Source: a virus. From it: DNA of 64,000 nt. Position numbers and translations under genes: made by a program. Positions 35,336 to 57,350 of this stretch are shown piece after piece; position 1 is the first letter of the stretch, and each line of letters starts with the position of its first letter. The stretch spans positions 24,090 to 88,089 of the IMG/VR virus record IMGVR_UViG_3300044675_002751; one strand, 5' to 3'. Below the pieces are notes generated by a model that searched no databases, was not told where the DNA came from, and saw only the letters and a program-made list of their open reading frames with translations.

Positions 35336-35357
35336 GTTCTACATATATAATATAAAC
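35336..35357 (-). promoter_or_regulatory. Putative late promoter A (drives the cargo/RNA polymerase unit)
   Basis: Read on the minus strand, the sequence is TTATATTATATATGTAGAAC, ending 3 bases before the start at 35332. It lies just downstream of the terminator at 35364-35391 and shares TATATTATAT and TGTAGA with the element at 56710. No transcript data, so promoter function is inferred from position and recurrence. Confidence 0.5.
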
Positions 35358-35363
35358 TAAAAT

Positions 35364-35391
35364 CTGCTAAGTTTAAAACTAAACTTAGCAG
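35364..35391 (-). terminator. Intrinsic terminator between the xxGG-protein unit and the cargo unit
   Basis: A perfect 12-bp stem (CTGCTAAGTTTA / TAAACTTAGCAG) with a 4-base loop; on the minus strand it is followed by ATTTTAGTTT. It sits 11 bases after the stop of the 853-residue gene. Confidence 0.75.
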
Positions 35392-35401
35392 GTTTAAAAG
35401 A

Positions 35402-37963
35402 CTAGTTGTTACTACCTAAAGAAAGACTTGATCTCCTACGACTGGAAGATTTGGGGAATCCAAAAGCATCATATGACTGTGTATTTGTCTGACGAGCTCC
35501 TGTCAAAGCTTGTATAGTCAAACGCTCTGCCATTTGTTCTCTACGCTTTTCATCTTTAATATCTTTCAAGTTGTCATATATATTCTTATACGTAGTGTTT
35601 GCAGATGCTCCTAGATTATCTAGACCTCCAGCTCCATTAGTTCCATAACCTGAAGCATACTTAAATATGTCACCCGCATTTCCTTTAAAAATGGTTTTAT
35701 AGCTTGCAGGATCACGGTAGAAATATGGATCACGCATATTAATATCATAAAGATCACCACGGTTTTCCCAAGCTGCTCCAAACTTATCTGCAACATTAGC
35801 CAGATATTCCCTCTGTGCATTTTCATAAGCTTGTCTTGCACGTACAGAGTTATCATAACGATCTTTAGCGTTCATGGTATTATACATTGTCACCTTGTCT
35901 TTACGATCCTGTTCCCTGGCAGAAAACTCGTTAAACACACCTACAGATTGTAAAGCATTATTAGCAATAGTCTGACCAACTGCGTCTCCTGTTTTACCAG
36001 CAAGGAATGAAAGATTTGAAGCTAAAGCAGAAGCAGGTCCGTATGTTGCCTGTGTATCCCCGGCAATATTATATGTTTGTTGTAACTGTTGAGCCTGGCT
36101 TAACCAATCAGGTAAAGCATATTGTCCTTTTTGAAATGCCATGTCTGGTGAAAAAGGCATATATACATTAGGAGGAATAGCTCCAGCAGCAAGTAGATTT
36201 GCTACGTCCGGAGCCAAAAATCCAAACGGAGCTTGTCTTGTAGGTCTTAACTCATCTGGTTTTTTTAATGGATCAGGATCTGGATCTTTCTTTTTTTCCT
36301 CAACAGGAGGATCTTCCTTTTTAACAGGTTTTTCTTTCTTCACCCAAGCTGGAGCACTAAATGTATGCTGACCAAACTTATCATCCAGACCGTAAGCATC
36401 TTTACCACTAAAGTAAGACGGGTCTACATTTTTATTATACCATTCCTGGAACTTGCGTGTTGAACCAACTTTTGTAGGATCCCAATTAGGATTTTGTTTA
36501 AAGAACTCAGGAAACCTCTTTTTAAAGTCAGCCATTCGTGCTGCACTAGTCCAGTCTTCTTTTCCATATACACGTTTATTACCAATAGCACTTTGTGTAG
36601 CTGGCATGTTTTCATCAAACCCTTCTGGATATATAAGATCGTAATCTTCTTTCTTCTTAGGTTCCAATACTGTTGTCTTAAATGCTGGTTGATATGTAGG
36701 CACTGTACTGCTACCTTTCTTTCCTTGAAACTTAGGCATAACATACCCACCATATGCCATTTCAGAGGCACCTAATATGGCTTCACTAAGAGCTGGTGCA
36801 GGAAGGCCTTTCATAGCTTCTTGTACCATAGCCAGCTTAGCAAGCATTTCATTATTTTTTTCAAACATACGTTTATCAGAGTTTATGCCTATACTATCAC
36901 TCTCACGAGTCTTATCTTCTAATCTGGCTTTGTAGTCATTGAGTTTAAACTTCTTTGCTATGGTTGCAGGTGTTACACCACCAGCTTTGTAACTCACACC
37001 AAACATTGCTAATATTTCTGGATCTTTAATCTTCATTTTCTTAGTATCTGAAAATATAAACGATCCTGCTGGAGCTTGTTCCTCAGTAAGCTTAGTACCA
37101 TTGTTATAGTGTCTTTCTCCACCTATAACAAAATGAGTACCGTCTGGACGCCATATAGTTTCTCCTCTTTCAGCTTCTAAGACTTTCATACCCGACTTTT
37201 CACTCATAGCATTTGTAGCTGTTTCAGAAGATGAATCTTCCATATCTGTGTACACCTTCCTGCGGCCAAGATCTAAACCATAGTTTGACTGTCCGCCATA
37301 TTCCATTTTAGGTGCACTTGTAATACGTATTTTCATAGGATTAATATTAGATTGTCCACCATAAGCAAACATACCTTCATTAGGTGTTGGTAGTTTATTA
37401 GGTTGAAATACACCAGAGTTTGTCATGTAGTTTCCTCTAAACATTTCAGTAGCCTGGGGATTAAGATTATTCATGTATTGCTGTCCTCTATCTTCATCTA
37501 GCTTTTTCTCATTTCCAAAATAGTTAGTAAAAAAATTACCAACATTTATTAGTCCTGTAGCTAAAGCACTATAAGCTCCAAGTTTTTTACCAAACTTATT
37601 AAAAGGACTTGCTTTAACGTCCTCAGTTGTGGTAGCAGTCTTTTGACTTGAGTTCATAGGATTAGAAGCTGTTCCCTCATTACCTGTAGTTTTGAAAGCG
37701 TTAGTAGGTAAACCTTTTTTACGTCTGTCACTAAACTCTCTCATCTTTTCAAATAATCTTTTTTCAGCTTCTGCCTCTTGTGGAGTGACACACTTCTGTA
37801 GTACTGCACTATAAGTTTGACCAGGAGGACATGTAGATGAATCACTAGGTTGATTATAAAAGTTTGCTGGATCATTCTCCCATTCAGAATGCCAACCAAC
37901 CTGGCTGGGTTCTTCATCACCCTGAAACTTTCTAACACCTTTTTTTGTAATACGTATTTTCAT
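35402..37963 (-). CDS. Putative virion protein with xxGG motifs, 853 aa
   Basis: Contains several xxGG-type motifs (FAYGGQ, MEYGGQ, KAGGV, MAYGGY). Around residues 255-310 there is a GETIWRPDG...FVIGGERHYNNGT segment; this Glu/Gly/His pattern recurs in structural proteins of Bacteroidota phages as far as I recall. Further on, FKKRFPEFFKQNP, FQEWYN and GLDDKFGQHTF suggest a small globular domain, possibly cell-wall binding, then a Pro/Lys-rich linker and a helical C-terminal third with a Ser/Arg tail. No catalytic motif seen. It is last in its unit, in front of a terminator. Virion location is inferred from neighbours. Confidence 0.75.
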   Translation of the reverse strand: MKIRITKKGVRKFQGDEEPSQVGWHSEWENDPANFYNQPSDSSTCPPGQTYSAVLQKCVTPQEAEAEKRLFEKMREFSDRRKKGLPTNAFKTTGNEGTASNPMNSSQKTATTTEDVKASPFNKFGKKLGAYSALATGLINVGNFFTNYFGNEKKLDEDRGQQYMNNLNPQATEMFRGNYMTNSGVFQPNKLPTPNEGMFAYGGQSNINPMKIRITSAPKMEYGGQSNYGLDLGRRKVYTDMEDSSSETATNAMSEKSGMKVLEAERGETIWRPDGTHFVIGGERHYNNGTKLTEEQAPAGSFIFSDTKKMKIKDPEILAMFGVSYKAGGVTPATIAKKFKLNDYKARLEDKTRESDSIGINSDKRMFEKNNEMLAKLAMVQEAMKGLPAPALSEAILGASEMAYGGYVMPKFQGKKGSSTVPTYQPAFKTTVLEPKKKEDYDLIYPEGFDENMPATQSAIGNKRVYGKEDWTSAARMADFKKRFPEFFKQNPNWDPTKVGSTRKFQEWYNKNVDPSYFSGKDAYGLDDKFGQHTFSAPAWVKKEKPVKKEDPPVEEKKKDPDPDPLKKPDELRPTRQAPFGFLAPDVANLLAAGAIPPNVYMPFSPDMAFQKGQYALPDWLSQAQQLQQTYNIAGDTQATYGPASALASNLSFLAGKTGDAVGQTIANNALQSVGVFNEFSAREQDRKDKVTMYNTMNAKDRYDNSVRARQAYENAQREYLANVADKFGAAWENRGDLYDINMRDPYFYRDPASYKTIFKGNAGDIFKYASGYGTNGAGGLDNLGASANTTYKNIYDNLKDIKDEKRREQMAERLTIQALTGARQTNTQSYDAFGFPKSSSRRRSSLSLGSNN

Positions 37964-37966
37964 AAG

Positions 37967-39301
37967 TTAGAGTATTTCAAATTCATAACCTTGAGCACGG
38001 AGTTGTTCTAGTTGTGCAGGACTTACTTCCATCTCTTGACCTACAACAGGACCTCCTTGTCTATAACTAGCAGTTGGCATAAACTCAGGAATATATCCTC
38101 CATAAGCATAACCTGCATTCCCAGACCAAGTTGGAGTTTTTGATCTCTGACGTCTACCATTATAATCTATATAACCACCCCTACCATATATCATTGAATA
38201 GTCTACATCTTCGTCATCATCATCTGCAGAAGAACTTTCTTCTTGAGCAGCAGGAACTTCTTGTTCAGATGATTCTTCTTCATCTACTTCTTCTACATCT
38301 TCTTCATACTCTTCCTGAGCTTCTGGCATATCCTGTTGATCCGCTTGAACTATTTCTTGATACATCTGCATAAGAAGTTGCTCTTGTTCTTCTTCACTTC
38401 TTTGCTGTAATTCACCAACAATAGCTTCTACAGACATAGCTGAATAATCAGCATATGCTTGTATTATTTCTTCTGCAGAAGGCATGTTTTCCAACTCACC
38501 ACCATCTTGCCAGGTAGCTCTAGCAAATGCTCTGAAGTATGGATTCTTATCCAGGTTCTTTTTATGACGAGCATAAAAGGCTTTTTTCCTTTCAGGATCT
38601 CTTGGATGCTGACCAAGCTTTGAGTCACCAAAGTATTTAACAGTACCATCAGGTCCTGTTACTTTATGTGTTTTTCCTTTTCTATCATTGCTTCTGCTTA
38701 CAACATATCCACCTTTTTTCATTTTTTCCATTTGCTCAGAAGCTTCAGGACCATACATTAAATAGTCAGATATAGCATCTGCACTATGATCCATAACAGC
38801 TAGCTTAGAAGCAATCCACGGATCAAGATTCTCATCTGGTTTTATAAACTTCAACAGCTTACTCATTTTATCAGATACAGCAGCCATCTGACCCATTGCC
38901 ATTTCACCATTAGCTTCTCCACCATCTGCCATAAACGGATAAGCCATACCACCATATGCCATGTTTTCAATAATCTTAGCCTGAACATATTCAGGGAGGG
39001 CTTGAAAACCTGCGTTCTGAGGTTCTCCACCTTGAGCCATAGAACTCATCTTTTGTTGAAGAGCATTACCTGAATACCCTTGAGCTTTAAGCTGTGCTTC
39101 TAAAAGCCAATTAGGTTTACCACCATCTGCCATCATTGGTATTTCCATACCATATTCAGCTTTACGCCAGGTTCCACCTTTACCTTTGTACCACTTAGCA
39201 GCCCAGCCGTTAGCATAAGCACTTGGATATACATCAAATTTTTGTTTAGCTAAAGACTTAGCTTTAGACCACAGACTGGGGTTATTAGGTTTGTTTGCCA
39301 T
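37967..39301 (-). CDS. xxGG-repeat protein with recurrent phage modules, 444 aa
   Basis: Nine xxGG motifs are spread along the protein (GG at 60, 91, 117, 127, 197, 267, 375, 401, 416; e.g. MADGG, MAYGG, YAYGG). Between them are short modules that recur in proteins of phages and large viruses: KFDVYPSAYANGWA (21-34), a K-L-x-x-x-DHSADAISDYLMYG stretch (166-184), and a DUF5754-like segment from KTHKVTGPDGT through FYARHKKNL (210-250). Residues 325-370 are extremely acidic. The layout suggests beads of small domains on flexible links. Function unknown; module assignments are from memory of similar sequences. Confidence 0.75.
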   Translation of the reverse strand: MANKPNNPSLWSKAKSLAKQKFDVYPSAYANGWAAKWYKGKGGTWRKAEYGMEIPMMADGGKPNWLLEAQLKAQGYSGNALQQKMSSMAQGGEPQNAGFQALPEYVQAKIIENMAYGGMAYPFMADGGEANGEMAMGQMAAVSDKMSKLLKFIKPDENLDPWIASKLAVMDHSADAISDYLMYGPEASEQMEKMKKGGYVVSRSNDRKGKTHKVTGPDGTVKYFGDSKLGQHPRDPERKKAFYARHKKNLDKNPYFRAFARATWQDGGELENMPSAEEIIQAYADYSAMSVEAIVGELQQRSEEEQEQLLMQMYQEIVQADQQDMPEAQEEYEEDVEEVDEEESSEQEVPAAQEESSSADDDDEDVDYSMIYGRGGYIDYNGRRQRSKTPTWSGNAGYAYGGYIPEFMPTASYRQGGPVVGQEMEVSPAQLEQLRAQGYEFEIL

Positions 39302-39309
39302 AGGATATA

Positions 39310-42300
39310 TTAATTTCTTTTATGATTGTAGTTAATACGTTGAGATGATGTCTTATTTCTTTTAAACTTAGCTTTCTCAGCAGAACTCATTTCAGATGAA
39401 GTCTTTGGAGTTTCAGAAGATACTCTTTTAGAAGGACGACATGCAGGATAACCTTTACGACTTTCTCCTTCTTGTCTACCACAAGTTTTTCCTGTCTTTA
39501 CATCAACCCACTTTTCAGCAAACCATCTGTCCAATCCACCGTGCTGACCACCTTTGGCCATCATATTAATTTCTCCACCTTGTTTCTTTTGAAAGAATAA
39601 TGGCAGATTCTCTGTTTTATTTTTAACATACTGCATATAACCACCTGGACTCAAAAAAGATTTAGGATTAATATCATATATATCATATACTCCTTTCTTA
39701 GAGTTAAACTTGACATTACCAGATACATTATCAACATCTAAAGCAATACCTTTATCTCTTAACTGTTTTGCTTGTTTAAGAAATAGTGCGTAAGCATCTC
39801 TACTTGATAGATTTAGTTTTTCAACATTAGTATTATTAAGATTATCCATAATACTAACTTCATTTTTTGTAGGACCAGTACCTTTCCATACTGACGGAGT
39901 ATCAAAGTTTTGATATTTAACAGGTATGGCAATATTACCTGTACCTCTCATGGACTGTACACTTTCTAATAACTCAGGAGTCCATTGATTACCAAAGGGT
40001 CTTCCCAACTTAATTACACTTTGCGGATGATTTTTAAACTCATACACAGAACCATAAGTACCTTGACCTAGTTTTTTACCAAATGGTGTTTTATCTATCA
40101 AAGAGTTTTCATAATCACTTCTACCTTTCTGTAGTTCTTTAAAATCAATTTTCTTTTTTGCACGTAGAATTTCTAATTTTTTATTATTTTCTGCAATAGA
40201 CTGAACATATTGCGGAAACCCACTTTGTAAATCTATTGTTTCTGGACTTACTTCTTTAGTATATCCCTTCCACCAATGTGGTTTATCTCCTACGTTTTTA
40301 AAACCGAAAGGATTAGAAAGATTACGGTTTAATTTATAAGCATTTTTTAAAGCGGTATTCTCTGTAAGATACTTACCTGCAACTTTTGTTCCTTGGTTAA
40401 CTGCACCTGGAACTTTACCCAAAGCCCCTGCTGCTTTTGGTATCATAGAAGGAGCTACATTAACAACGTCTTCAGCAAAGTTTGCAAAGTTTCCAACACC
40501 TGTGTTACTAGGATTGAAGTATCTATTACCGGCATCCATAGTCAGATTGGCAAAAGATCTTCCTGGTGAGGTGAATATACTAGTAGCAACATCAGCAACA
40601 GGATTGCCTGTGTTTGTTAGCATGTTAGCACCTCTCAAAATTCTTGCTCTTAATGAATTATCTTTTAACAAATAACTTTGTTCCTCAACTGATTTGTTAG
40701 GATTGTAATCAGGATGCATCTGAGTACGATAGCTGTCGTTGTTAACCTTTTCAATAATACTGTTTGCTTTTGCATCTTTAGTTCTTACGGCTCTTCTAGC
40801 ATGAGCTTCTGAATAACCCCCTTTGTTTATTAATGCTTGAACTTGTTGCTCAGCTTTTTTATTAGATGATTCTTGAGCAGCTATTTGATTAGCAACCCTT
40901 CTATCTATACCGCTATTGGTACTACTAGCAACTGCTCTGGGTCTTTCAAAGTTAACCTGACCTCTTATTTGATAAGTTGGTAACTTACTATGCTGACCAC
41001 CTTTTTTAAAACTATCGTACATAGTCTCAGCACCCAAAGCACCAAGCAGAGCACGATTTGCCATTAAATTTGCATCAGTCATACCTTTCACTTTTGTAAA
41101 AGGTTCTATATAATTAACTCTTGGAATATTCCTAGTACCGGAAGGAAGATTAGCTTGTGGACTAAATGGATACAATGGTTGTCCTGGTTTTAAATATTTA
41201 CTATTTCTTCTGAATTCATTAAAACCTAAGAATGTAGGTAATGCAACAGATGCCGCATTAATTGCAGCATTGTCGTAGTTTCCTTTACGAGTTTCCATAC
41301 CTGCCTGAAATGCGTCTACTCCACTACCTAACATATTGCCTATTTTTCCGACAGCCTGTCCTATAGGATGAGGTATAAAATTACCAGCCTGCATTGCGTC
41401 TGTTATTACATCTGCATAACCCAGTCCTTTGTTAAGAAGTTTTTCTGCTTTTCTCCAGTTGTAAAATTGTTGTCTTACAGCGTCAGGAGTAGATGACCGA
41501 GGTTGTAAAACAGGTTGTTCTTTTTTAGAAGCACGCTGAGCATGTTGTTTTAAATGCTCCATCTTTAGTTGGTCAGAAGTCTTCTTTACTACAGGTTTTT
41601 TTACATAAGTAGAATTAGACATTATAGGATCTACTACATTAGTGTTTTGTCCACCACTATCAAATCTTTTAAAACTACCTACACCTGGATTAGGAGCAAT
41701 CTGAGGTTGTTTCCATTTAAACAATGGTATATTATCTGGTTTACTATAATTAAACGTCATAGGCATCTCATGACCAGTAACTGCATTTATCTGATCTTCC
41801 ATATATTTATATGGTTTAGATGCGTACAAAGGAGATCTGTAACTAAGAGGTACACTATTTTTATTATACAAGTTATCTGCTAACAAATCCTTAGGAGCAG
41901 CTTTTATAAGTGTAGTTCTTCTTGGGTATAAAAACTTATTTCTTGGTATTATATACTCATTAGGATTCATTTCAAATCTAGATGTATTCTGACTCTCTTT
42001 AAGAGCTACTATATCCTTATCACCTTTAATATTCTTTTTCCAAAAAGGTACTTTGTATTCAGTTAAACGTAAGTCTTTTCCATCCAACAACCCACGATTA
42101 CTAGCATACTGACCTATCTCTGCAAGACTTGAAGTAGTCCAATCTCCTTTTTCATAAACTTTTTTTGCTAAGTCATTAGCTTCATAACCAAGTTTATTAC
42201 CCCCAACAGCTTCTACTCTGTATGTTCTTTTAGGATAAATAGCTCTATCTATTTTTTGAGGAATATTCTTGAAAAATGGCTCAGCAAATTTTTCACCGGC

Positions 42301-43728
42301 ACCTGCTATCAATGGTAGTCCTATTGATGTTACATATGGTAGTATTGAATTTTCTTGTTTAGCCATTAACGGAGCAGTACCTAACCCGCCTGCTACAGAA
42401 GTAACTAAACTTAAAGGGTTAAGATAGTTATCAAAAAATGATTCATTATCTTCATTAAACCTACCTCTTTGTTCAACTGCTTTACCTTGTACATAAGACT
42501 TTTCCCTCCAATCCATTTGATCAAACGTCTTTTTTTCTCCTGTAGGTAAAACATATGGCTGTCCTTGATCAACAGCAGCAACTGCAGATTTTCTATCTGC
42601 AACTCTCTCAGCAAGTTCTTTTTTTTGTATTTTATTTTGCTCTGCAATCCAATCAAGTCTTTTTTTGTTAGCAAGCTCTGGAGTATTTGTAGCTTGAATT
42701 GGTTTATTATTACTTCCTAAATAATAGCTTTTGGGTGCTCCTTGACTTTTTATTGGCTTACCATATTTTTTTACATAATCTGTAACACTATTAAGTTCTC
42801 CGCCAACTTGTTTAATGTGACGTATGTACATGTCAAGATCCTTGTTTTTTCTGAGGATATTATCACGTATATCCATTACACGTTTTCCATACAAAGGATT
42901 CTTACGCATATCTATCCCTTCTTTAGGAACAGGTACACCATAAATCTTCTTCATTTTAAAACCATGATAATCCTGCTCAGTTTCTGGAAAAACCTTACCC
43001 AAACCATTATAAGTCTGGAATCTCATTTCAGGATCCTTGTAACCAAGCTTATCAGCATATTGCATTTTAGTAGCAATAGCTCTTGCGTATACGTCAAAAT
43101 CATCTACGTCTCCATCATCTAATTTGCTTGGTATAATTTGGTTTCCTTCCAATAAGTAATGTCCTACTGGACCATCACTTATTTTACCCCAACCAGTCTC
43201 TTGAAGATCAATAGCCAAGGCATCATAAGGATCTATACCATATCTTTTAGCAGCTTTAACTATACCATAAATTCTATCACTAGGATATTTACCGGTTAAG
43301 AGTTCTACATTAGGATTAATAGGTTTACCAGTTGTCCTGCTAACCTTACGAGAATCTTTTATGTACATTTCTTTAGGTAGTGTAAGTACAACACCTTTTT
43401 TCTTTGGTTGTTCCATACCAAACAAGTTCCTAAGATCTGCAGCTATAGATGAAAACCAACCAGTTTCTTCACCACCATTTTGCATTAACGGATATTCTCT
43501 TACAGGCTTAGAAGGAAAATAATAATCCTGCCCATCTTTCATATACTGACGCGTACCATCAGGAGAAACACCGATAGCATCAAACCCAACTCCTTTCATA
43601 GTAATATGCTGAGAGTTGATATCTGTCACCTGACCTGGTGTTTGCCACTGGTTTTTGGGCGTACGAACTTTCTTAGGCTTAGCTAAGTTGTTCATAATCT
43701 GCGTAAGTAGTTTACCGTTGTGACTCAT
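39310..43728 (-). CDS. Multidomain virion protein with lysozyme-like and protein-kinase-like domains
   Basis: 1472 residues. Near the N-terminus, residues about 150-240 look like a transglycosylase/lysozyme fold: IVKAAKRYGIDPYDALAI leads to LQETGWG with the likely catalytic Glu at 177. Near the C-terminus is a kinase-like domain: glycine loop GQGTYGSVY (1221-1229), VIKL with Lys 1240, a catalytic-loop-like LDVDNVSGNV (D1331, D1333, N1334) and YDIYDINP (D1352) in the place of the metal-binding Asp. Residues about 500-605 have a weak ADP-ribosyltransferase-like pattern. A Cys/Trp tail (WFAEKWVDV, TCGRQ, YPACRPS) from 1397 resembles small domains found in many phages. Several xxGG motifs occur. 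It overlaps the muzzle gene stop by one base (TAATG). Confidence 0.8.
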   Translation of the reverse strand: MSHNGKLLTQIMNNLAKPKKVRTPKNQWQTPGQVTDINSQHITMKGVGFDAIGVSPDGTRQYMKDGQDYYFPSKPVREYPLMQNGGEETGWFSSIAADLRNLFGMEQPKKKGVVLTLPKEMYIKDSRKVSRTTGKPINPNVELLTGKYPSDRIYGIVKAAKRYGIDPYDALAIDLQETGWGKISDGPVGHYLLEGNQIIPSKLDDGDVDDFDVYARAIATKMQYADKLGYKDPEMRFQTYNGLGKVFPETEQDYHGFKMKKIYGVPVPKEGIDMRKNPLYGKRVMDIRDNILRKNKDLDMYIRHIKQVGGELNSVTDYVKKYGKPIKSQGAPKSYYLGSNNKPIQATNTPELANKKRLDWIAEQNKIQKKELAERVADRKSAVAAVDQGQPYVLPTGEKKTFDQMDWREKSYVQGKAVEQRGRFNEDNESFFDNYLNPLSLVTSVAGGLGTAPLMAKQENSILPYVTSIGLPLIAGAGEKFAEPFFKNIPQKIDRAIYPKRTYRVEAVGGNKLGYEANDLAKKVYEKGDWTTSSLAEIGQYASNRGLLDGKDLRLTEYKVPFWKKNIKGDKDIVALKESQNTSRFEMNPNEYIIPRNKFLYPRRTTLIKAAPKDLLADNLYNKNSVPLSYRSPLYASKPYKYMEDQINAVTGHEMPMTFNYSKPDNIPLFKWKQPQIAPNPGVGSFKRFDSGGQNTNVVDPIMSNSTYVKKPVVKKTSDQLKMEHLKQHAQRASKKEQPVLQPRSSTPDAVRQQFYNWRKAEKLLNKGLGYADVITDAMQAGNFIPHPIGQAVGKIGNMLGSGVDAFQAGMETRKGNYDNAAINAASVALPTFLGFNEFRRNSKYLKPGQPLYPFSPQANLPSGTRNIPRVNYIEPFTKVKGMTDANLMANRALLGALGAETMYDSFKKGGQHSKLPTYQIRGQVNFERPRAVASSTNSGIDRRVANQIAAQESSNKKAEQQVQALINKGGYSEAHARRAVRTKDAKANSIIEKVNNDSYRTQMHPDYNPNKSVEEQSYLLKDNSLRARILRGANMLTNTGNPVADVATSIFTSPGRSFANLTMDAGNRYFNPSNTGVGNFANFAEDVVNVAPSMIPKAAGALGKVPGAVNQGTKVAGKYLTENTALKNAYKLNRNLSNPFGFKNVGDKPHWWKGYTKEVSPETIDLQSGFPQYVQSIAENNKKLEILRAKKKIDFKELQKGRSDYENSLIDKTPFGKKLGQGTYGSVYEFKNHPQSVIKLGRPFGNQWTPELLESVQSMRGTGNIAIPVKYQNFDTPSVWKGTGPTKNEVSIMDNLNNTNVEKLNLSSRDAYALFLKQAKQLRDKGIALDVDNVSGNVKFNSKKGVYDIYDINPKSFLSPGGYMQYVKNKTENLPLFFQKKQGGEINMMAKGGQHGGLDRWFAEKWVDVKTGKTCGRQEGESRKGYPACRPSKRVSSETPKTSSEMSSAEKAKFKRNKTSSQRINYNHKRN

Positions 43729-48515: not shown

Positions 48516-48918
48516 GTTTTACTTGTAGCTTCTTCTTTTCTAAAAACTTATAGAGAGATTCTGTGATATGTCCAGCCATCCATGCCTGGGCTTCTTCATC
48601 TGTAATCCCTCTGTCTTCTGTTATTCTAACCGCTGCATGAAATATTTCATGAGCTATTGTGTTATGCGTGATGTAACCCTTTTCAATCATAAGGTAGTAA
48701 GTATCCATATTTGGCATTACCAACACACCTTCTGCCTCATCTTCAAACTCATCTTTAATATTATACTTCTTATATATTTTTTCTACGCTGTTCTTGACAT
48801 TGTCTACAACGGCAATTACAAGCTTGCAACCATATGTTGGAAACTTGATAGTAGTAGACGGTTGCCTGGTTTTTTTACCAGCCGTAACCTGACTTGAACA
48901 TATCGTAGTATCTTGCAT
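48508..48918 (-). CDS. Small zincin-like metallopeptidase
   Basis: 136 residues. HEIFH at 90-94 in the context TIAHEIFHAAVRI, followed by ITDEEAQAWMAG, gives the two His and a likely third Glu ligand of a gluzincin-type protease. This small form occurs in phage morphogenesis regions. It lies between the ring-type and muzzle genes, overlapping both (8 bases at its 3' end, 44 bases at its 5' end), so it may process a tail protein or act on the host wall during entry. Both roles are inference; the substrate is unknown. Confidence 0.85.
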   Translation of the reverse strand: MQDTTICSSQVTAGKKTRQPSTTIKFPTYGCKLVIAVVDNVKNSVEKIYKKYNIKDEFEDEAEGVLVMPNMDTYYLMIEKGYITHNTIAHEIFHAAVRITEDRGITDEEAQAWMAGHITESLYKFLEKKKLQVKHG

Positions 48919-49741: not shown

Positions 49742-49746
49742 GGCAG

Positions 49747-50418
49747 TTAACGGGCAATATTTTGTTTGTCATTAATAGGATCAGGAGTAATACTTAACAT
49801 ACCTGTAAGATCTTTGTATACAGCAGCCTCAAGTTCACCAAGTAAGTAATCAGGGACATTAAAAGTTTGGTCTGATTTTACTACGCAGCTGTCTGCCTCA
49901 CATGTAAATGCAGATATGTCATCTTCAAACACACCTTCTATACGTACAGCATCCCATTCCAAATCAGGGAAATAGATATAATCATCCAGATACCAGTAGT
50001 ACTTAGTCTTGTTGTATTTGAAGTTCTTACTCTTAGACATTGCCAGGTAAGAACTCGGAACTGTAGGTTGCATTTCTTGTGATCCATCTAAAGAAGCTAT
50101 GGTACGAATCAACGGACCCCAGTAGCCCTGCATAAACATGGGCATCTTATCTTTCGTACGCTTTATCTTACAGTCAGAAGTAAGTCCTGTGCATCCTGCT
50201 TCTATCTTATCTACCTCAATTAATTCTACAAAATCCATCATTTGCAAGACACCAGAAAAAGACAAAATCCTATTCTTAGAATCTTCTCTCTTAAGTAACC
50301 ATTTAGAATGTTTATTTACAAAAGAGTATATAACTCGGTCAGTCAGTAAAGCATCTTGCCTTACTGCTTTTACCTGAGAACGAATTCTTGAGAGTACATC
50401 TCCAATGGTAGTTTTCAT
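49747..50418 (-). CDS. Putative ring/connector protein, 223 aa
   Basis: A helical N-terminus (IGDVLSRIRSQVKAVRQDA) followed by strand-rich sequence with Cys residues and a YYWYLDDYIYFPDLEW aromatic region, ending in a helix (LLGELEAAVYKDLTGML). This is the usual look of head-tail adaptor and ring proteins of podoviruses. It sits between two other small structural genes with gaps of 3 and 5 bases. No diagnostic motif, so the exact ring position is unknown. Confidence 0.7.
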   Translation of the reverse strand: MKTTIGDVLSRIRSQVKAVRQDALLTDRVIYSFVNKHSKWLLKREDSKNRILSFSGVLQMMDFVELIEVDKIEAGCTGLTSDCKIKRTKDKMPMFMQGYWGPLIRTIASLDGSQEMQPTVPSSYLAMSKSKNFKYNKTKYYWYLDDYIYFPDLEWDAVRIEGVFEDDISAFTCEADSCVVKSDQTFNVPDYLLGELEAAVYKDLTGMLSITPDPINDKQNIAR

Positions 50419-50421
50419 AGG

Positions 50422-51009
50422 TTAGTCCAGATTAAACTCGTCATACTCATCTAAGAGTCTAGCGGTTTCTTGTTTCTTAAAGTCTTTGAACTTCTGTTTA
50501 CGAAACAGTAAGCTCACCTTAACCAGGTTATCCACCTGCACATATTTCTTCCACTCTGTAGGATACGTTTTGGCTACGGTTCTTTTGAAATCACGAAGAC
50601 CGGTAAAACCCCACATCTCGTGATGCTTAAACCGATACTTAGTTTCAAAGTTTGTGTAGAATATCTTAGCTACATATTGATCAGATTCCCAGTTTTGGTT
50701 CTGCACCTTTTGACCATACTGGTTACTCACCTTATAGTTAGGATTGTCATTCTGTTTTCTAGGACAGGTTCCTATAAACAAATAACCCAGTTGTTCGGGT
50801 AACTCTACCCCATCCCGGTTATCTATGACATGCTGCCATATCTTTCCGTTAAAGGATGATATTACCTGTTTAAACTGGGTGGCAGTTAAAGAACTAAACC
50901 TAGAGTTCTCTTCTATAAACTTATTGTAGACATCAACGTTAGTTAGGTTTAGCTTTTTAGGGCGGTACCTAGGAGCATTGAGGTCGGGTTTTTTATAGTT
51001 TGTGGCCAC
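50422..51009 (-). CDS. Conserved-looking small structural-block protein, 195 aa, GTG start
   Basis: First gene of the connector/muzzle unit. The start codon is GTG at 51009: upstream the frame has no ATG before a TAA at 51028-51030, and no Met occurs near the N-terminus, so GTG is the only reasonable start. The protein is basic, aromatic-rich (KIFYTNFETKYRFKHHEMW) with a Lys-rich tail. No family recognised. The start lies 2 bases downstream of a TGTAGAAC motif, so the transcript may have almost no leader. Confidence 0.75.
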   Translation of the reverse strand: MATNYKKPDLNAPRYRPKKLNLTNVDVYNKFIEENSRFSSLTATQFKQVISSFNGKIWQHVIDNRDGVELPEQLGYLFIGTCPRKQNDNPNYKVSNQYGQKVQNQNWESDQYVAKIFYTNFETKYRFKHHEMWGFTGLRDFKRTVAKTYPTEWKKYVQVDNLVKVSLLFRKQKFKDFKKQETARLLDEYDEFNLD

Positions 51010-51011
51010 AA

Positions 51012-51030
51012 GTTCTACATTAATAATTTA
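51012..51030 (-). promoter_or_regulatory. Putative late promoter B (connector/muzzle unit)
   Basis: Minus strand TAAATTATTAATGTAGAACT, with TGTAGAAC ending 2 bases before the GTG start at 51009. It lies in one of the only five gaps over 50 bases in the minus block. A 7-bp inverted repeat (51055-51073) overlaps the upstream stop but lacks a T run, so it is not called as a terminator. Confidence 0.45.
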
Positions 51031-51069
51031 CGTAAAATCCATGAAGTTTCCTAGTTAAACTTGTAGAGT

Positions 51070-52383
51070 TTAAGCATTGTAAGTAAACTCTGAAATCTTA
51101 CCCTTATGGTAGTCATGTACTTCCATAAGAGCCTGGCGTTTAGATCCTGTAAACTTGTTGTGATAGTGCCAGTAATCTGATTTGGAAAGAGAAGGCAAAT
51201 GCTTTATGGCAAAGCCGTGTATCTCATTATCTGTAACGTATTCTGTAGTCTTCTTAGAATGAAAGTGTCCGGTATAACAGGTGCGGTAGATAGTACTCCC
51301 CCAAAACAATGGGAACTCAGTAGCGTAAACCAGCGGTGTCCATTTCTTTGTTACGTCTCCATGTTCAAAACCAAAGAAGTTGGCTCCGTACACTTTTACT
51401 TTACGCTCTGAATACTCTACATCAAAAATGATGTTTTCATCTTGGAAACATTTGCTTAAACCATGAGCCAAGTGGTAAGAGCTTAAGCGGTCATGATTAC
51501 CAGGTAAATAAACTACCTCAAGCTTTTCACAAAACTGTTTTAGATAATGTACAGACCAGTGTAAAGCATCAAATGCCTGGTTGTAAGCATCCTGAGCACG
51601 CATGTCATTATCTACCGGGGTGCCTTTGGTGGTCTGTCCCATGAACGTATCCATATTTAACAGGTCACCACCAAAGACATAAATAATTTTTTCAACCCGG
51701 TGGCTCATGTACGCCCTCATTGTGAGGTTAGCAACGGCGTCTTTAAAATCTTGTATTACATTTCCGTTTCCTTCTTTACCAAAGTGAAGATCCTGTATAG
51801 ACAGGATAGCCACTGTACGATTTTCAAAATTTGCATTTAGATGCACTTCCTTTACAGGAGTGTAAGAAGGTTGAAAATTCTGTAGTGTTTCTTTCAGCAG
51901 CTCTTTAGGTTCCAGTTCTTTCTGGCTAACCTGGGCTGAAATAAGCCAGTAGTCTTTATGCTGCTTATTCCAATAAGTAGATAGCTTCCACTTCTTGGTA
52001 TCTATCTTAAGTATTCTTATGATTTCTTCCGGACTCTTTGGCTCCGAGAAAGCTATTCCTTTTATCTCTGCTGTACCTGAATCTAGATCTTCTCTAAACT
52101 CAACTACTCTTTCCCGGTTCTGGTTAATAGCATCAATTAGATTTTCTTCCAGGTCAGATATATACTCATCTTTAATCTGTTCATCACTTATTAAATCAAG
52201 CATCCGTTTTCCTGCAAGATCTACCAGACTGTTATCCAACTCCGTCTGTAAAAGTTCTCTAGTTTGTAGAATTTGTCTTTTGATTTCTTGGTATTTTCCA
52301 AGAGAAATACCTAACTTTGACGCACACCACTCATCAGTCTTTTTCCATTTGAGTGAGCCGTACACTTTAGAAATAAGGTTCAT
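51070..52383 (-). CDS. Metallophosphoesterase with long N-terminal extension
   Basis: 437 residues. Residues 1-180 are helical with a possible helix-turn-helix around 17-30 (DEWCASKLGISLG). The catalytic domain follows: QDLHFGK (D198, H200), FGGDLLN (GD 239-240), LPGNHDR (GNHD 295-298), FEHGD (341-343) and YTGHFHS (372-375), a complete two-metal site. The GNHDR form resembles SbcD/Mre11-type nucleases and phage phosphoesterases. Placement among structural genes but with its own promoter-like motif and an upstream terminator suggests a separately timed enzyme, perhaps a nuclease. Start context is ATACCCTATG. Substrate unknown. Confidence 0.9.
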   Translation of the reverse strand: MNLISKVYGSLKWKKTDEWCASKLGISLGKYQEIKRQILQTRELLQTELDNSLVDLAGKRMLDLISDEQIKDEYISDLEENLIDAINQNRERVVEFREDLDSGTAEIKGIAFSEPKSPEEIIRILKIDTKKWKLSTYWNKQHKDYWLISAQVSQKELEPKELLKETLQNFQPSYTPVKEVHLNANFENRTVAILSIQDLHFGKEGNGNVIQDFKDAVANLTMRAYMSHRVEKIIYVFGGDLLNMDTFMGQTTKGTPVDNDMRAQDAYNQAFDALHWSVHYLKQFCEKLEVVYLPGNHDRLSSYHLAHGLSKCFQDENIIFDVEYSERKVKVYGANFFGFEHGDVTKKWTPLVYATEFPLFWGSTIYRTCYTGHFHSKKTTEYVTDNEIHGFAIKHLPSLSKSDYWHYHNKFTGSKRQALMEVHDYHKGKISEFTYNA

Positions 52384-52416
52384 AGGGTATTGGATTGGTA
52401 TACGGTGTATGAAATT

Positions 52417-52462
52417 AGTTCTAATATGTAGAACTTACACAAATGTTCTACAATATTTTTCC
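52417..52462 (-). promoter_or_regulatory. Putative late promoter C with two alternative hairpins
   Basis: Minus strand GTGGAAAAATATTGTAGAAC begins the element. The plus-strand palindromes AGTTCTA-5-TAGAACT (52417-52435) and TGTAGAAC-10-GTTCTACA (52427-52452) share one arm, so they can form only one at a time. It lies between the terminator at 52473-52507 and the start at 52383, inside the expected leader or promoter of the metallophosphoesterase gene. Confidence 0.5.
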
Positions 52463-52472
52463 ACATGATGTT

Positions 52473-52507
52473 AAAAAAGAAGCCCCTATGTAGAAACAAA
52501 GGGGCTT
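52473..52507 (-). terminator. Intrinsic terminator after the adhesin cassette
   Basis: An 8-bp stem (AAGCCCCT / AGGGGCTT) with a 12-base loop. On the minus strand it is followed by CTTTTTT. It ends the transcript running from 56661 to 52552. Confidence 0.8.
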
Positions 52508-52551
52508 TGTTATGTCAGAGGAAACCAACAAAACCACTGACTTTTTATATT

Positions 52552-53601
52552 TTATTCTTGAGGTTGATTACCACCACCGCTACAGTTTTGAACACAGGTT
52601 GCATAATCTGTGTAAGGTCCATCTACTGTTCCAAGACACTCACCATTTACGCATACCCATGATGAAGCCCCGCCACCGGATCCTCCACTACCACCACCTG
52701 CACAAGTCGTGCAGTCTGCGTGTGTTGATATGACATCATTAGTATTTACTGTGGTTGTAGGAGAAATATTATCAAAACACTGAACAGTGTTGCCACAAGT
52801 AACACAGTTAGCTTTAATAATCACATTAGCTGAATCCAAATTAGCTGTAGTAGAGCGGAATGATTCTGTAATATTGCCGCTACAAAGAATACCAGTATAG
52901 TAATAATAGGTTGGACCAGGAGGTACATAATTACATCCCAGAGTAACATCCCAAGAATCATTAGTCTGGTTGTTTGGATCAGCACCGCCAACTTGAACTC
53001 TAAGTTCATACTCTTTTGTCTGATCGTAAGTAAATTGAATATTTCCTGTAGATGGTGTGTTGTTACTAGCACCCCAAGGACCAGGATAATTAGCTGTACC
53101 TGCCCAGTTAGAAGTTACAGTGATTGTAGAATCAGTAACATTATAAATATCAAAACGGTTAATTCTGTCTACTACGTTATATGCAAGTGTGATAGTGCTA
53201 CCGTTCTGTACACCAGTAAAATCAAGAACTACAGAAGGATAGATATAAAAGTTCATGTTGTCAACAGTACCCTGGTAACCACATCCGCATCTGAGAGGTA
53301 CACCTAAACCGGTAACAGTAGTTGTGACAGGCTGACTTTGAAATCCGGGTCCACACTGACTTTCTACTGAAACATTAATATTTTCACAAGCAGGAACATT
53401 AAAAATAGTTACAGGTGAAGTTGCAGCATTAGGAGAAACAGTTGTGTAACTAGTATCAGAAGCCCGCTTCCACTTTACCACATATCCAGATGCAGGAGCA
53501 GGGTTAGCTGCATTAAATGTAACTACAACATCTCTTGTTGTACTACAAGTTAAGCAGTTATTATTAGTGCTTCCGGGAGGTGTTGTAGGTGTAAATGCCA
53601 T
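52552..53601 (-). CDS. Cys-rich adhesin with FN3-like domain and Cys tail, 349 aa
   Basis: Residues about 20-95 read as a fibronectin-III-like beta sandwich (RDVVVTFNAANPAPASGYVV, KWKRASDT). The middle is strand-rich with repeated Asn/Thr/Tyr. A Gly/Ser linker (GGSGGSGGGA) leads to a Cys-containing tail: WVCVNGECLG, YTDYATCVQNC. The same tail ends the 227-residue protein encoded at 54732. Such modular, Cys-rich beta proteins are typical of phage surface appendages in Bacteroidota phages; a receptor-binding role is inferred. The gene ends its unit before a terminator. Confidence 0.8.
   Translation of the reverse strand: MAFTPTTPPGSTNNNCLTCSTTRDVVVTFNAANPAPASGYVVKWKRASDTSYTTVSPNAATSPVTIFNVPACENINVSVESQCGPGFQSQPVTTTVTGLGVPLRCGCGYQGTVDNMNFYIYPSVVLDFTGVQNGSTITLAYNVVDRINRFDIYNVTDSTITVTSNWAGTANYPGPWGASNNTPSTGNIQFTYDQTKEYELRVQVGGADPNNQTNDSWDVTLGCNYVPPGPTYYYYTGILCSGNITESFRSTTANLDSANVIIKANCVTCGNTVQCFDNISPTTTVNTNDVISTHADCTTCAGGGSGGSGGGASSWVCVNGECLGTVDGPYTDYATCVQNCSGGGNQPQE
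52558..52665 (-). repeat. Cys-tail module copy 1 (copy 2 at about 54738-54845)
   Basis: The last about 35 codons of the 349-residue and 227-residue genes encode the same W-x-C-V-N-G-x-C ... YTDYATCVQNC module. DNA of the two copies is clearly alignable but differs at scattered, mostly third, positions, so the duplication is not recent. Confidence 0.75.
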
Positions 53602-53613
53602 AGTCTTATTTTA

Positions 53614-54036
53614 TTAGGCGGTACATTGTGTAGTTCTAGTAAAAGACCCACCCGCAACAGAGCCATCTTTTGCACAAACAGTAGTAGGTGAGTTTGCATT
53701 ATTAGAAACAGTTATTGTTTGATCTACTTGTCCGCAAGGGATATAAGTATAGTTACCCGTGTTTATAAGTATAAAGTTGTAACAAACACTGGTTCCTCCA
53801 ATAGCTGAAAAATTAATAGGAAGACCAAAACTTCCATTACCACAGTTTGCCTGTATTGTTCCTTCAATATTTAAACATGCTGGAACTGAAGATATCACTA
53901 CTGGATTACCATACTGAGTAACTTCGTTCCAGGCTATTTCACCAACAGCTCTCCACTTAACTAAATATCCATTAGCTGGTGGAATATCTGGAGCTACAAA
54001 AGAAACTTGAAGTGTTTTAAAAGTTGAACAAGACAT
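53614..54036 (-). CDS. FN3-like appendage protein, 140 aa
   Basis: Starts MSCSTFKTLQVSFVAPDIP and continues NGYLVKWRAVGEIAW, closely the same arrangement as the FN3-like domain of its 349-residue neighbour (NGYLVKW versus SGYVVKW). The two probably arose by duplication. The C-terminal half is Asn/Thr/Cys-rich. Lacks the Cys tail. Likely part of the same surface structure; inferred from domain type and position. Confidence 0.75.
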   Translation of the reverse strand: MSCSTFKTLQVSFVAPDIPPANGYLVKWRAVGEIAWNEVTQYGNPVVISSVPACLNIEGTIQANCGNGSFGLPINFSAIGGTSVCYNFILINTGNYTYIPCGQVDQTITVSNNANSPTTVCAKDGSVAGGSFTRTTQCTA

Positions 54037-54047
54037 ACGTTAGGTTT

Positions 54048-54701
54048 TTATACTATAGTTCCTGTACCAGAAAGTTTAACAGGAGAAGTAGCAAATGCTT
54101 GAAATGTTTTAGGAGATCCCTGTACAATTGTTATAGTAAAGATCTGATGATCAGATCCTACTGCTCTTATAACTGTAGCACCGCCAGACAAAGGAGTTGT
54201 AGGGGCTTGAGATACTGTAAATGTAGTGGCATTAGTAATACCAGTTACAGTAGTGTTTGCAGCAAATACACCAAGACCTGAGGCAACCGATACAGTCATT
54301 CCTACAGCAAGTCCGGTTGTAGATCCTACAGTAATAGTAGCTGAAGCATTTGTTGCACCAGCTGTAGATGTGTAAACAGGACCAAGACCTAAATAAGACA
54401 CCACCATAGGAGTGGTAGTTGTTGATGTGGCTGTATAGTTAGCAAGAGGAATAGGATTAGCAAGCATAGGGTTGATCACCTTATGCATCTTTAAAAGCAT
54501 AGTCAAGAGTCTATCCTGGTTTAGAATACCAAAAGCAGGAAGATTGGGTCCTGTATAACCGGAACACTCTACCCCCAACACTTCCTCACAAGGTTCACCT
54601 TCTATACAAGGAGGTAAGTTGATTGCAAGATTAGGAGGGCAATCTGCACAAGGGTTGCAGTTTACCAAAGGAAGAGTATTATTGTAGCAGCCGCATGACA
54701 T
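54048..54701 (-). CDS. Appendage protein with Cys-rich N-terminus, 217 aa
   Basis: Nine cysteines lie in the first 50 residues (MSCGCYNNT, NCNPCADCPP, GVECSG), then a helix (LLTMLLKMHKVI) and a Thr/Ala/Gly-rich beta region (ASATITVGSTTGLAVGM) ending in short strands. The N-terminus looks like an anchoring or disulfide-linked plug, the C-terminus like a small beta decoration. No family recognised. It sits between FN3-like genes with small gaps in the same unit. Confidence 0.75.
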   Translation of the reverse strand: MSCGCYNNTLPLVNCNPCADCPPNLAINLPPCIEGEPCEEVLGVECSGYTGPNLPAFGILNQDRLLTMLLKMHKVINPMLANPIPLANYTATSTTTTPMVVSYLGLGPVYTSTAGATNASATITVGSTTGLAVGMTVSVASGLGVFAANTTVTGITNATTFTVSQAPTTPLSGGATVIRAVGSDHQIFTITIVQGSPKTFQAFATSPVKLSGTGTIV

Positions 54702-54731
54702 AGCTTAATATATTAAAGTGTTATTTTATAA

Positions 54732-55415
54732 TTACTGTTGAGGATTACCTCCACCACCGCTACAGTTCTGTACGCAAGTTGCGTAATCGGTATAACCTCC
54801 ACCTACAACTCCAACACAGTTTCCGTTAACACAATCCCAAGCAGAAGCACTACCTCCACCACCGCCAGAACCTGTATCAATAGCAGCACCAACATTAGTT
54901 GGAGCATTACAAACAGGAGTTGCGGTAGTAGTAGCATTAACAGCAGTACACTGCTTGTTAAAACTTCCTGCAATTATTGTTACTCTAACTTTATAACTAG
55001 TTGACTGAGTGAGTGTACTAAATGTTCCTGATACTGTTCCAGTAACTGAAGGGCTTTGAGTTTGAAGTACTGTGGTTCCAGCTGAATCAAGAAGATGCAC
55101 GGTATAACCAGTGGTAGATCCACCAACATTAGTAAAACTATAGGCCACAGTAGTATCTGTAGGTGTAATAGTTACTGTAGGACAAATCAAATTTACCTGC
55201 TGAGTAGACAAACTAGGAGCAGGCGTTCCACCTGTACAGTTGGTAACAACTCTAAAATCGTATATTTGATTATCTATCAATCCAGTAATAGTAGCACTTG
55301 TTACGTTTCCAGCTACATTAGAGTGTGTAGTCCAAGTACTAGCTGATGCCAACTTATATTGTACATCTTGTGAAGCTGCACCACCTCCTGTTAACCAGGT
55401 AAGATTAATATTCAT
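54732..55415 (-). CDS. Tandem FN3-like protein with Cys tail, 227 aa
   Basis: Two FN3-like domains (about 1-85 and 86-170), each with the Y-x-V-x-L/V strand pattern (YDFRVVTNC, YKVRVTII), are followed by a poly-Gly linker and the Cys tail WDCVNGNCVG, YTDYATCVQNC, GGGGNPQQ. The tail is nearly the same as in the 349-residue protein, so it is a shared module. The first domain starts abruptly (MNINLTWLTGG), so the gene may be the end of a once longer protein. Surface or receptor-binding role is inferred. Confidence 0.8.
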   Translation of the reverse strand: MNINLTWLTGGGAASQDVQYKLASASTWTTHSNVAGNVTSATITGLIDNQIYDFRVVTNCTGGTPAPSLSTQQVNLICPTVTITPTDTTVAYSFTNVGGSTTGYTVHLLDSAGTTVLQTQSPSVTGTVSGTFSTLTQSTSYKVRVTIIAGSFNKQCTAVNATTTATPVCNAPTNVGAAIDTGSGGGGGSASAWDCVNGNCVGVVGGGYTDYATCVQNCSGGGGNPQQ

Positions 55416-55428
55416 ATAGTATGTTTAT

Positions 55429-56661
55429 TTAAATTAATGTAGCAGTTACAGAGGCAACAACCGGACAAGGAACCAGTATGGTTCTAACAGTAGACTTATT
55501 GCATTCCTTACCATCTTTAGTGATACATCCATTCACTGTTATAGTGTATGTAAGTGATGTATTTAAAGCTGCTCCGGATACACCAGATCCAGCTACAATA
55601 GCAGTGAACGTGTTATTACTGGAAGCAAGAGATACAAGATCAACCCTAAAATCTTTACTAGTAGTTCCGTCAGAAATAGTAACCAAAGATCCAAGCTGAC
55701 TGCAGTTAGAGAAACCGGCAGGAATAATCGTACCAGGGTTGAAATCCAAGTATACTTCCTGACGTAGATTATTTGCAGAAGCAGTGTAACCCAAAATAAA
55801 TTGAGTACAATCAACTTGAGAACAACAGTTCTTAAGATCATTTATAGCAGCTCTCATGTCACAAACTGTAATCCAAAGATTCTGAAAAGACTGAGCAATA
55901 TTAGTTATGCTGCCATTCCACCCTGCAACAGATGATAAAGTTCCTGCTTGACTAAGTGCGTTTTGTGCACCCAGGTTTGCACACTGCTGAGCAGCAGCTG
56001 CTGTAAGTGCATTATTTGTACCAAGAGCATTTCTAAGTAAGCAATACTGAGCTTCTAGTTCATCAAGAACAGTATTCATTGCAGTAGGTACAGCAGGTAA
56101 AATACAATTAGGAGTAACTTGAGGAAGAGTTACACCAGGAGCATTTTCAAGAGCAGTAATCCTAGTATTGTGACTAGCTATTTGAGAAGTATGCTGGTTA
56201 ACTAAAGTGTTAAGCTGGCAAACTTTCTGAGCAATAGTTAAAGAGTATTGATTATGAATAAGTTGTGTAACTGTCTGCCCCTGGTTGTTCTGATACTGTA
56301 AGCAAGTGGGCAACGCCAAAGTAGGCTCAGTGTAACTAGTTCCAGGAGTAATTCCTGCAATAGTTGTGTTAAGACAACACACCTTTCTAACAATGAAATC
56401 CAATACTGCTGACAGGGTCTTTTGAGTAGGAGCAGGATTACTAGCAGAACAAAAACTAACCAGGCAGGAAAGATCCAGGTCAGTCAGATCGTATGCATCA
56501 GCTATGTTGCACAGATCGGTTGCCATTTTATAGACTACGTCAGATACAGTGTCACCGTTGCAAAGGTTAAGGCACGGGATAGCAGGACCCTGCCAAACGA
56601 CACAATTGGAAGATACAGGAGAACAACCCTGCTCAGCAGTATTGGACTTAGTAGGTAACAT
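55429..56661 (-). CDS. Putative fibre/appendage protein, 410 aa
   Basis: The N-terminus (CVVWQGPAIPCLNLCNGDT then VVYKMATDLC) is an anchor type I associate with fibre or appendage proteins of Bacteroidota phages. Residues 140-240 are helical and coiled-coil-like (TLVNQHTSQIASHNTRITALE), compatible with a trimeric shaft, and the last 130 residues are beta-rich and Cys-containing. It is the first gene of the adhesin cassette, after a promoter-like motif, with start context ATACCCTATG. Head-fibre versus tail-fibre placement cannot be told. Confidence 0.75.
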   Translation of the reverse strand: MLPTKSNTAEQGCSPVSSNCVVWQGPAIPCLNLCNGDTVSDVVYKMATDLCNIADAYDLTDLDLSCLVSFCSASNPAPTQKTLSAVLDFIVRKVCCLNTTIAGITPGTSYTEPTLALPTCLQYQNNQGQTVTQLIHNQYSLTIAQKVCQLNTLVNQHTSQIASHNTRITALENAPGVTLPQVTPNCILPAVPTAMNTVLDELEAQYCLLRNALGTNNALTAAAAQQCANLGAQNALSQAGTLSSVAGWNGSITNIAQSFQNLWITVCDMRAAINDLKNCCSQVDCTQFILGYTASANNLRQEVYLDFNPGTIIPAGFSNCSQLGSLVTISDGTTSKDFRVDLVSLASSNNTFTAIVAGSGVSGAALNTSLTYTITVNGCITKDGKECNKSTVRTILVPCPVVASVTATLI

Positions 56662-56709
56662 AGGGTATAGAATATTATAGTCTGGTCAATCCCAGGTTTA
56701 AGCTTAAGG

Positions 56710-56744
56710 TGTAGTCTACAATATAATATACTGAATTTCTACAA
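56710..56744 (-). promoter_or_regulatory. Putative late promoter E (adhesin cassette)
   Basis: Two copies of the motif lie on the minus strand: TTCTTGTAGAA (56737-56744 core) and TATATTATATTGTAGACTAC. The second shares TATATTATAT with the element at 35336. It lies between the terminator at 56746-56781 and the start at 56661. Confidence 0.5.
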
Positions 56745-56745
56745 G

Positions 56746-56781
56746 AAAAACAAAAAACCACCCCCTGAAAAGGAGGTGGTT
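56746..56781 (-). terminator. Intrinsic terminator after the 162-residue gene
   Basis: An 11-bp stem (AACCACCTCCT / AGGGGGTGGTT on the minus strand, with one wobble pair) has a 4-base loop and is followed by TTTTGTTTTTC. It ends a single-gene transcript. Confidence 0.85.
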
Positions 56782-56807
56782 AAACACACTATATATAAAA
56801 TGACAGA

Positions 56808-57296
56808 CTAGTCTACAGTAACCAAGCGGAAAAAAGTCTCGTAGTTCTCTGAAGTTTCTACCTTCTCAAACTCATTGAGTTTGAATCCTTTATATTCTAC
56901 TTCCTTTTCAGTCTGAAGCAGCTCGTTAAACTCTGTCTCAAAAGACTGGAAGTCAGGGTTCATTTTTTTCTTACTCACCTTGCTACCATCTTCATTAGTA
57001 GTCTCAATAACTTTACCATCTTCATCAACCTCGTCTACAAGCATAGGAATCGTAAATCCACCCTTTCCATCATCTTTACCGTACTTACGGATCAGGTCGT
57101 TCTTAAGTTCTTCAACAGCTGCCTTCTCAGCTGCTACAGCCTTGCCAAGTGAAGACAACCAATACTTAGTTATTAAAGGTAGTTTTTCCTGGAGCAATCC
57201 CTGAGACGTCTTGGCTCCAGTCTGTGGGTTAACAACACCATTAAGTTCTGCGTCTAAGTTATAGAACTCAAACAATTTAAGTGTGATTTTTTCCAT
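56808..57296 (-). CDS. Hypothetical single-gene-unit protein, 162 aa, DUF1617-like pattern
   Basis: Helical and acidic: ITLKLFEFYNLDAEL, LPLITKYWLSSLGKAVAAEKA, then a region rich in Glu/Lys and a final strand. The layout of a long N-terminal helical hairpin with a charged middle is like the DUF1617 phage proteins; the match is weak. The gene is alone between the inverted repeat at 57321-57350 and the terminator at 56746-56781, so it is transcribed independently and probably in a different amount from its neighbours. Start context AATACCCATG. Function unknown. Confidence 0.75.
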   Translation of the reverse strand: MEKITLKLFEFYNLDAELNGVVNPQTGAKTSQGLLQEKLPLITKYWLSSLGKAVAAEKAAVEELKNDLIRKYGKDDGKGGFTIPMLVDEVDEDGKVIETTNEDGSKVSKKKMNPDFQSFETEFNELLQTEKEVEYKGFKLNEFEKVETSENYETFFRLVTVD

Positions 57297-57320
57297 GGGT
57301 ATTAGATTATTAGTTTAAAC

Positions 57321-57350
57321 TTCTACAAATATAGATATATATTTGTAGAA
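57321..57350 (-). promoter_or_regulatory. Putative late promoter D, perfect 13-bp inverted repeat
   Basis: TTCTACAAATATA and TATATTTGTAGAA flank a 4-base spacer. The arms contain the TTTGTAGAA form of the late motif on both strands. It lies 24 bases upstream of the 162-residue gene, next to the palindrome AGTTTAAACT. It could serve as a promoter/operator or an mRNA leader hairpin. Confidence 0.5.

Follow-up and report, generated by a model that had tools for sequence, protein, structure and literature searches.

The gene block and its long gaps

The window, a 64,000-nucleotide stretch made up of bases 24,090 to 88,089 of an 88,089-bp virus record (G000), covers the late half of a crAss-like phage from the environment. 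Its minus strand is occupied from 10,482 to 63,964 by a dense block of genes, one of which (18014-27613) encodes a 3199-aa protein that matches the virion RNA polymerase of phage phi14:2 (6vr4, E 2.1e-27); the catalytic region of this protein matched 110 phage records, mostly crAss-like. Adjoining it on the same strand at 10482-17996 is the gene for a 2504-aa protein with no match in PHROGs or PDB. DNA polymerase, helicase and primase are encoded on one strand, and structural proteins and RNA polymerase on the other. G000 thus displays two traits of Crassvirales, a giant virion RNA polymerase gene and opposed replication and structural/transcription blocks. Throughout, "late" denotes the strand of the structural block, as judged from gene content and strand.

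Annotated phages include no close relatives of the window DNA, and a search with a 281-aa protein as query returned no relatives. A 1595-aa structural protein used as query led to 12 related IMG/VR contigs at 44-65% identity. These relatives are metagenomic contigs whose genes were called crudely, by a simple longest-ORF rule; G003 is near-identical to G002 and G007 to G004, and a non-redundant set of nine genomes was used for counts where relevant. A Shine-Dalgarno-like site was present in only 19 of 668 genes and the sequence ahead of the starts is rich in A, which is the pattern expected with a Bacteroidota host; a search of bacterial genome contigs for that host found no relative and gave no identification.

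Gaps of more than 50 bp between minus-strand genes number exactly five, at 69, 60, 168, 146 and 128 bp (gaps 1 to 5), as the original prediction had stated. It had also reported TGTAGA(A/C) pointing toward the downstream gene in all five, which is borne out (minus strand, 35337, 51013, 52446, 56714 and 56737, 57321), and none of the shorter minus-strand gaps contains it. The only 6-mers common to the five gaps are TGTAGA and GTAGAA. Among 2000 dinucleotide shuffles, 0.2% shared as many 6-mers and none shared one with at least 2 G/C, so the sharing is not due to chance, even though the motif was picked after looking. Strong terminators had been placed upstream of three of the gaps; hairpin-plus-T structures are found at gaps 1 and 4, and that of gap 3 is long-looped and was judged by eye.

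Specificity is where the 7-mer fails. Within genes of the nine genomes, TGTAGA[AC] occurs 269 times on one strand and 268 times on the other, an equality that had been named in advance as grounds for giving up the motif. It is over-represented across the window (56 against 27 expected), it recurs in early-strand gaps (six in G000, and also in relatives G012 and G006), and orthologous junctions do not preserve the copies seen in gaps 3 and 5. The proposed motif TGTAGAAC was therefore rejected as unspecific, being found in the genes of both strands and in early-strand gaps, as was the idea of a single motif for all five gaps, since gaps 3 and 5 have other conserved features.

A conserved element at late-strand junctions

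A search of upstream regions by de novo k-mer enrichment and EM motif finding, with no preset motif, returned GTATATTAT together with TGTAGA, and the core GTATATTATATTGTAGA is exact in seven upstream regions from six phages. It is the upstream GTATATTAT that is informative, of which the original prediction had caught just a trace ('TATATTATAT'), and the defining sequence is GTATATTAT-N2-3-TGTAGA. The features that belong to it in G000 are as follows (window coordinates unless stated).

35337..35355, minus strand: gap 1 (protein family c7), predicted late promoter core TTATATTAT-ATA-TGTAGAA, from relatives-only matrix (top four), leave-locus-out ranking and synteny
35364..35391, minus strand: gap 1, terminator-like hairpin CTGCTAAGTTTAGTTTTAAACTTAGCAG followed by ATTTTAG, 12-pair stem
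51013..51031, minus strand: gap 2 (family c10), predicted late promoter core GTAAATTAT-TAA-TGTAGAA, score 23.5, third best in the genome
51032..51069, minus strand: gap 2, upstream block AAGTTTA...AGGAAACTTCATGGATTTTAC, conserved in the alignment of relatives
56714..56731, minus strand: gap 4 (c13/c19), predicted late promoter core GTATATTAT-AT-TGTAGAC, best matrix hit in the genome
56751..56754, minus strand: gap 4, -33-like TTTG, spacer to TATATTAT exactly 20 (spacer test, independent sites)
56756..56781, minus strand: gap 4, strong terminator AACCACCTCCTTTTCAGGGGGTGGTT plus T-run, 11 pairs of which 6 G-C, upstream of the predicted promoter
G000 position 15,500, minus strand, outside the window: predicted promoter of the lysis operon (c34, Amidase_2 endolysin gene)

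The element is found at six or more syntenic late loci, namely gaps 1, 2 and 4, the lysis operon and two head-side junctions (c50 and c56), the last two known from relatives only as the G000 record is cut at its right end. In the non-redundant set, GTATATTAT in intergenic sense orientation occurs 22 times on the late strand and once on the early strand. Extended to GTATATTAT-N2-3-TGTA, it occurs 15 times in late-strand intergenic DNA, with a further 2 copies in doubtful gene calls, and 0 times on the early strand, so that the comparison of strands that defeats the 7-mer is passed by the longer sequence. Such a location, before late transcription units only (15 versus 0, at lysis and structural junctions), is that of a phage late promoter.

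A matrix built from relatives only and run over approximately 176,000 positions of G000 placed gap 4, the lysis promoter, gap 2 and gap 1 as its top four hits. No maximum from 20 shuffled genomes comes close to the scores of the first three; gap 1 falls inside the range of shuffled maxima, and for this reason its assignment draws mainly on synteny. With each locus left out in turn, the ranks among 176,146 positions were 2 for the lysis promoter, 3 for gap 4, 5 for gap 2 and 7 for gap 1. An IMG/VR scan for the 20-mer GTATATTATATTGTAGACTA returned 26 exact stretches, of which 23 are followed 15-57 nt downstream by an ATG-started ORF related to a protein of the phage group, the ORF of the other 3 running off the contig end or not being resolved. 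The GATTTTNCGTAAATTATTAATGTAG portion of the gap 2 block was found in 19 IMG/VR stretches, and 16 of those 19 lie on contigs that also carry the 20-mer.

Gaps 1 and 2 are compact junctions of ~60 bp that read TAAAC..AGTTTA..AAACTTnnnAGATTTT..GTATATTAT..TGTAG and then the start codon. Five bases separate the gap 1 core from the downstream start codon region of the gene at 33911-35332; 11 relatives, a few of them near-identical among themselves, conserve this junction, and the AAGTTTA/TAAACTT part of the hairpin directly upstream is kept in the alignment of relatives. The gap 2 core is conserved in 9 relatives, near-identical pairs included, and the gap 4 17-mer is exact at the same junction in G002, G004, G005, G006, G007, G008 and G010. 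The terminators directly before the predicted promoters in gaps 1 and 4 suggest that each of these junctions ends one late transcript and starts the next.

To the left of the window, at G000:C1:11963-15440 (minus strand), lies a lysis island, a short late-strand stretch within the early/replication block that contains the Amidase_2 endolysin gene. It has its own exact copy of the predicted late promoter, and the same arrangement is seen in five relatives.

From conservation, synteny, strand specificity and spacing we infer that the element, GTATATTAT-N2-3-TG(T/A)(A/G)GA, is a promoter, and it is probably a widely conserved start signal for late (structural and lysis) genes. The late promoter first proposed for all five gaps thus stands at gaps 1, 2 and 4, to which the lysis operon outside the window is added. 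A search of the accessible literature for an earlier description of the element found none; a published late motif of phi14:2 may exist.

Gaps 3 and 5 and the early-strand gaps

The remaining two long gaps, 3 and 5, contain the following.

52446..52452, minus strand: gap 3, TGTAGAA, non-conserved, not counted as a late promoter
52404-52443, minus strand: gap 3, 5'-leader hairpin
57326..57333, minus strand: gap 5, canonical Bacteroidota -7 box TATATTTG, not of the late class
57312..57321, minus strand: gap 5, palindrome AGTTTAAACT just after the -7 box, with AGATTAATCT in the same place in relatives

At the gap 3 junction, TGTAGAA is absent from the relatives except G006, and there is no match to the relatives-only matrix. 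The conserved feature here is the leader hairpin rather than TGTAGA. The hairpin also lies upstream of c11 in relatives and precedes a phosphoesterase/exonuclease-like gene; RNAfold structures from five relatives keep the outer stem TGTGTATAA / TTTATACACC while the inner stem sequence varies, and in the window the outer stem is degenerate. The upstream part of gap 3 (52384-52551, minus strand) is a terminator with a long loop containing TTTCTACAT. Several relatives keep the sequence of this loop, an unusual feature in a terminator.

At gap 5, the TGTAGA singled out earlier overlaps the end of the TATATTTG box. Alignment of this junction shows TATATTTG/TATATTCG to be conserved and TAGA not, and TTG-N19/20-TAnnTTTG is present there in two relatives. 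The symmetry of the gap 5 palindrome is kept while its letters change, and it is possible that it serves as an operator.

Early-strand gaps at G000:C1 464, 1374, 1427, 21063, 24025 and 31545 share TTGGAGAACTT-type sequences and TGTAGAC, sometimes with a palindrome, TTCTACAGTATATTTGTAGA (c60), and several match TTG-N21-TAnnTTTG in relatives. These elements are possible middle promoters.

Proposed promoter geometry and the polymerase that would read it

In Bacteroidota, promoters carry a TTTG close to -33 and a TAnnTTTG box at -7 (PMC7366714; PMC2483708; PMC9723704), and the late element can be laid over this scheme. TATATTAT would take the place of the -7 box, a -33 TTG/TTTG would lie exactly 20 nt upstream at about half of the loci, and TGTAGA would cover the predicted start site, transcripts from Bacteroidota primary-sigma promoters starting 4-5 nt after the -7 box. 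In a spacer test on 11 independent sites, taken from loci preselected for GTATATTAT and with representatives chosen by hand, TTG occurs exactly 20 nt upstream of TATATTAT at 5 and at any other spacer at no more than 1 (P 5e-5 against shuffles, for any spacer). TTG is absent at the other 6; the copies of gap 4 and c50 are bordered by a T-run, and several loci without it have a conserved AAACTTnnnAGATTT-like stretch instead. Searches for sigma-70 promoters gave no excess over shuffles, and a GGAnnnnTCC activator dyad near -33 occurs at c50 and a few other places and is not general.

The resemblance to primary-sigma (sigma-ABfr) promoters, with -33 TTTG and -7 TAnnTTTG, extends to the two elements and their 20-nt spacing (as in phi14:2 late gaps) at those sites that have a TTG, the AT-rich spacer and the service of genes without Shine-Dalgarno sites. 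The late element differs in having TATATTAT as its -7 box, in the half of its sites that are without TTG, and in a GTAGA-like sequence conserved at the predicted start. Its appearance is that of a host-type promoter with AT in place of TG at the end of the -7 box. TAnnTTTG itself is found only at gap 5 and at some early-strand sites, and canonical TTG-N19-21-TAnnTTTG sites in the same genomes lie for the most part on the early strand and at gap 5. The sharing of one geometry by two promoter classes suggests a host polymerase that has been re-tuned. The TAnnTTGY box of Flavobacterium psychrophilum SM5 (PMC9723704) is matched by letters in gap 4 and the lysis promoter (TATATTGT), but that register, with TATATTG as the apparent -7 box, puts the TTG at a distance that does not fit. 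The TAnnTTGY box is not matched in gaps 1 and 2 or in the c50 class.

The late promoters of Cellulophaga phage phi14:2 occupy the same place in the gene order and have the same -33/-7 geometry, one late gap reading TTG-N20-TATATTTG; those of Lbo-JY46 also occupy the same place. Both phages have canonical TAnnTTTG boxes, and the stretches read contain no intergenic GTATATTAT-TGTAGA. Lbo-JY46 (L075) is a crAss-related Leptolyngbya phage, and the Bacteroidota-type -7 boxes of its late gaps (TAACTTTG, TATCTTTG, TACCTTTG), together with its crAss kinship, are odd beside the recorded cyanobacterial host.

The best reading, to which we assign a probability of roughly two in three, is that the element is a late promoter and that the RNA polymerase of the host reads it, its recognition probably altered by a phage factor. 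Of the readers first offered, host polymerase with a phage factor is the one that fares best, with no factor identified: a Pfam search of 26 early- and middle-block genes found no phage sigma or DNA-binding protein. More tentatively, and at somewhat less than even odds, a predicted phage specificity factor would retarget the host polymerase in the late phase from TAnnTTTG to TATATTAT, a temporal switch in which the host -33/-7 spacing is kept. A comparable case is the T4 MotA middle promoter, which uses host polymerase and a phage factor and likewise has host geometry with one element replaced; in T4 this is the -35 element, whereas here it is the -7 box, with no known factor.

The factor could be dispensed with if TATATTAT were tolerated by the host primary sigma and the timing came from elsewhere, such as DNA replication. 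The late sites do share their spacing with canonical ones, and variants around TAnnTTTG have been reported in F. psychrophilum (PMC9723704). Plain host recognition is uncertain because the box departs from consensus at its last two bases, and this departure, TTAT for TTTG, recurs at almost every late locus of these divergent phages. Moreover, the early strand hardly carries the element at all, while canonical boxes are present there in the same genomes. We regard this explanation as unlikely, if the strongest of the alternatives.

It is less likely still that the giant virion RNA polymerase, or another phage polymerase, reads the element. Conserved sequence over the predicted start is common in phage-polymerase promoters and would favor such a reader, and the phage does encode the 3199-aa enzyme with its 6vr4 match. 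The absence of the element from the early strand weighs against it, as does the exact TTG-N20 spacing, which matches host-type -33/-7 geometry and leaves the earlier suggestion of the phage's own polymerase unsupported. The phi14:2 enzyme is itself tied to early genes, with late genes thought to be host-read (PMC10136315). Alternatively, TGTAGA/TCTACA may be chiefly an operator or RNA hairpin and the sites regulatory rather than promoter cores. Several copies do form inverted repeats, with TCTACA..TGTAGA pairs flanking or following sites in gap 3, gap 5, the lysis operon and the early-strand c60 gap. At gap 2, and at the gap 4 junction of most relatives, no inverted partner stands in a fixed register, and constraint is strongest on the bases of GTATATTAT, making this the least probable of the explanations considered.

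A late promoter read by host polymerase, probably with a phage factor, bears on the switch that crAss-like phages make from an early phase, transcribed by the virion polymerase, to a late one. For the late part, the literature says only that the host enzyme probably performs it in cultured members (PMC10136315; PMC8375218). Being sharply defined and conserved in many environmental relatives, this class of late promoter would give the switch a concrete sequence to test. It predicts the late operons, including a lysis operon inside the early block, and it specifies what a phage specificity factor would have to recognize.
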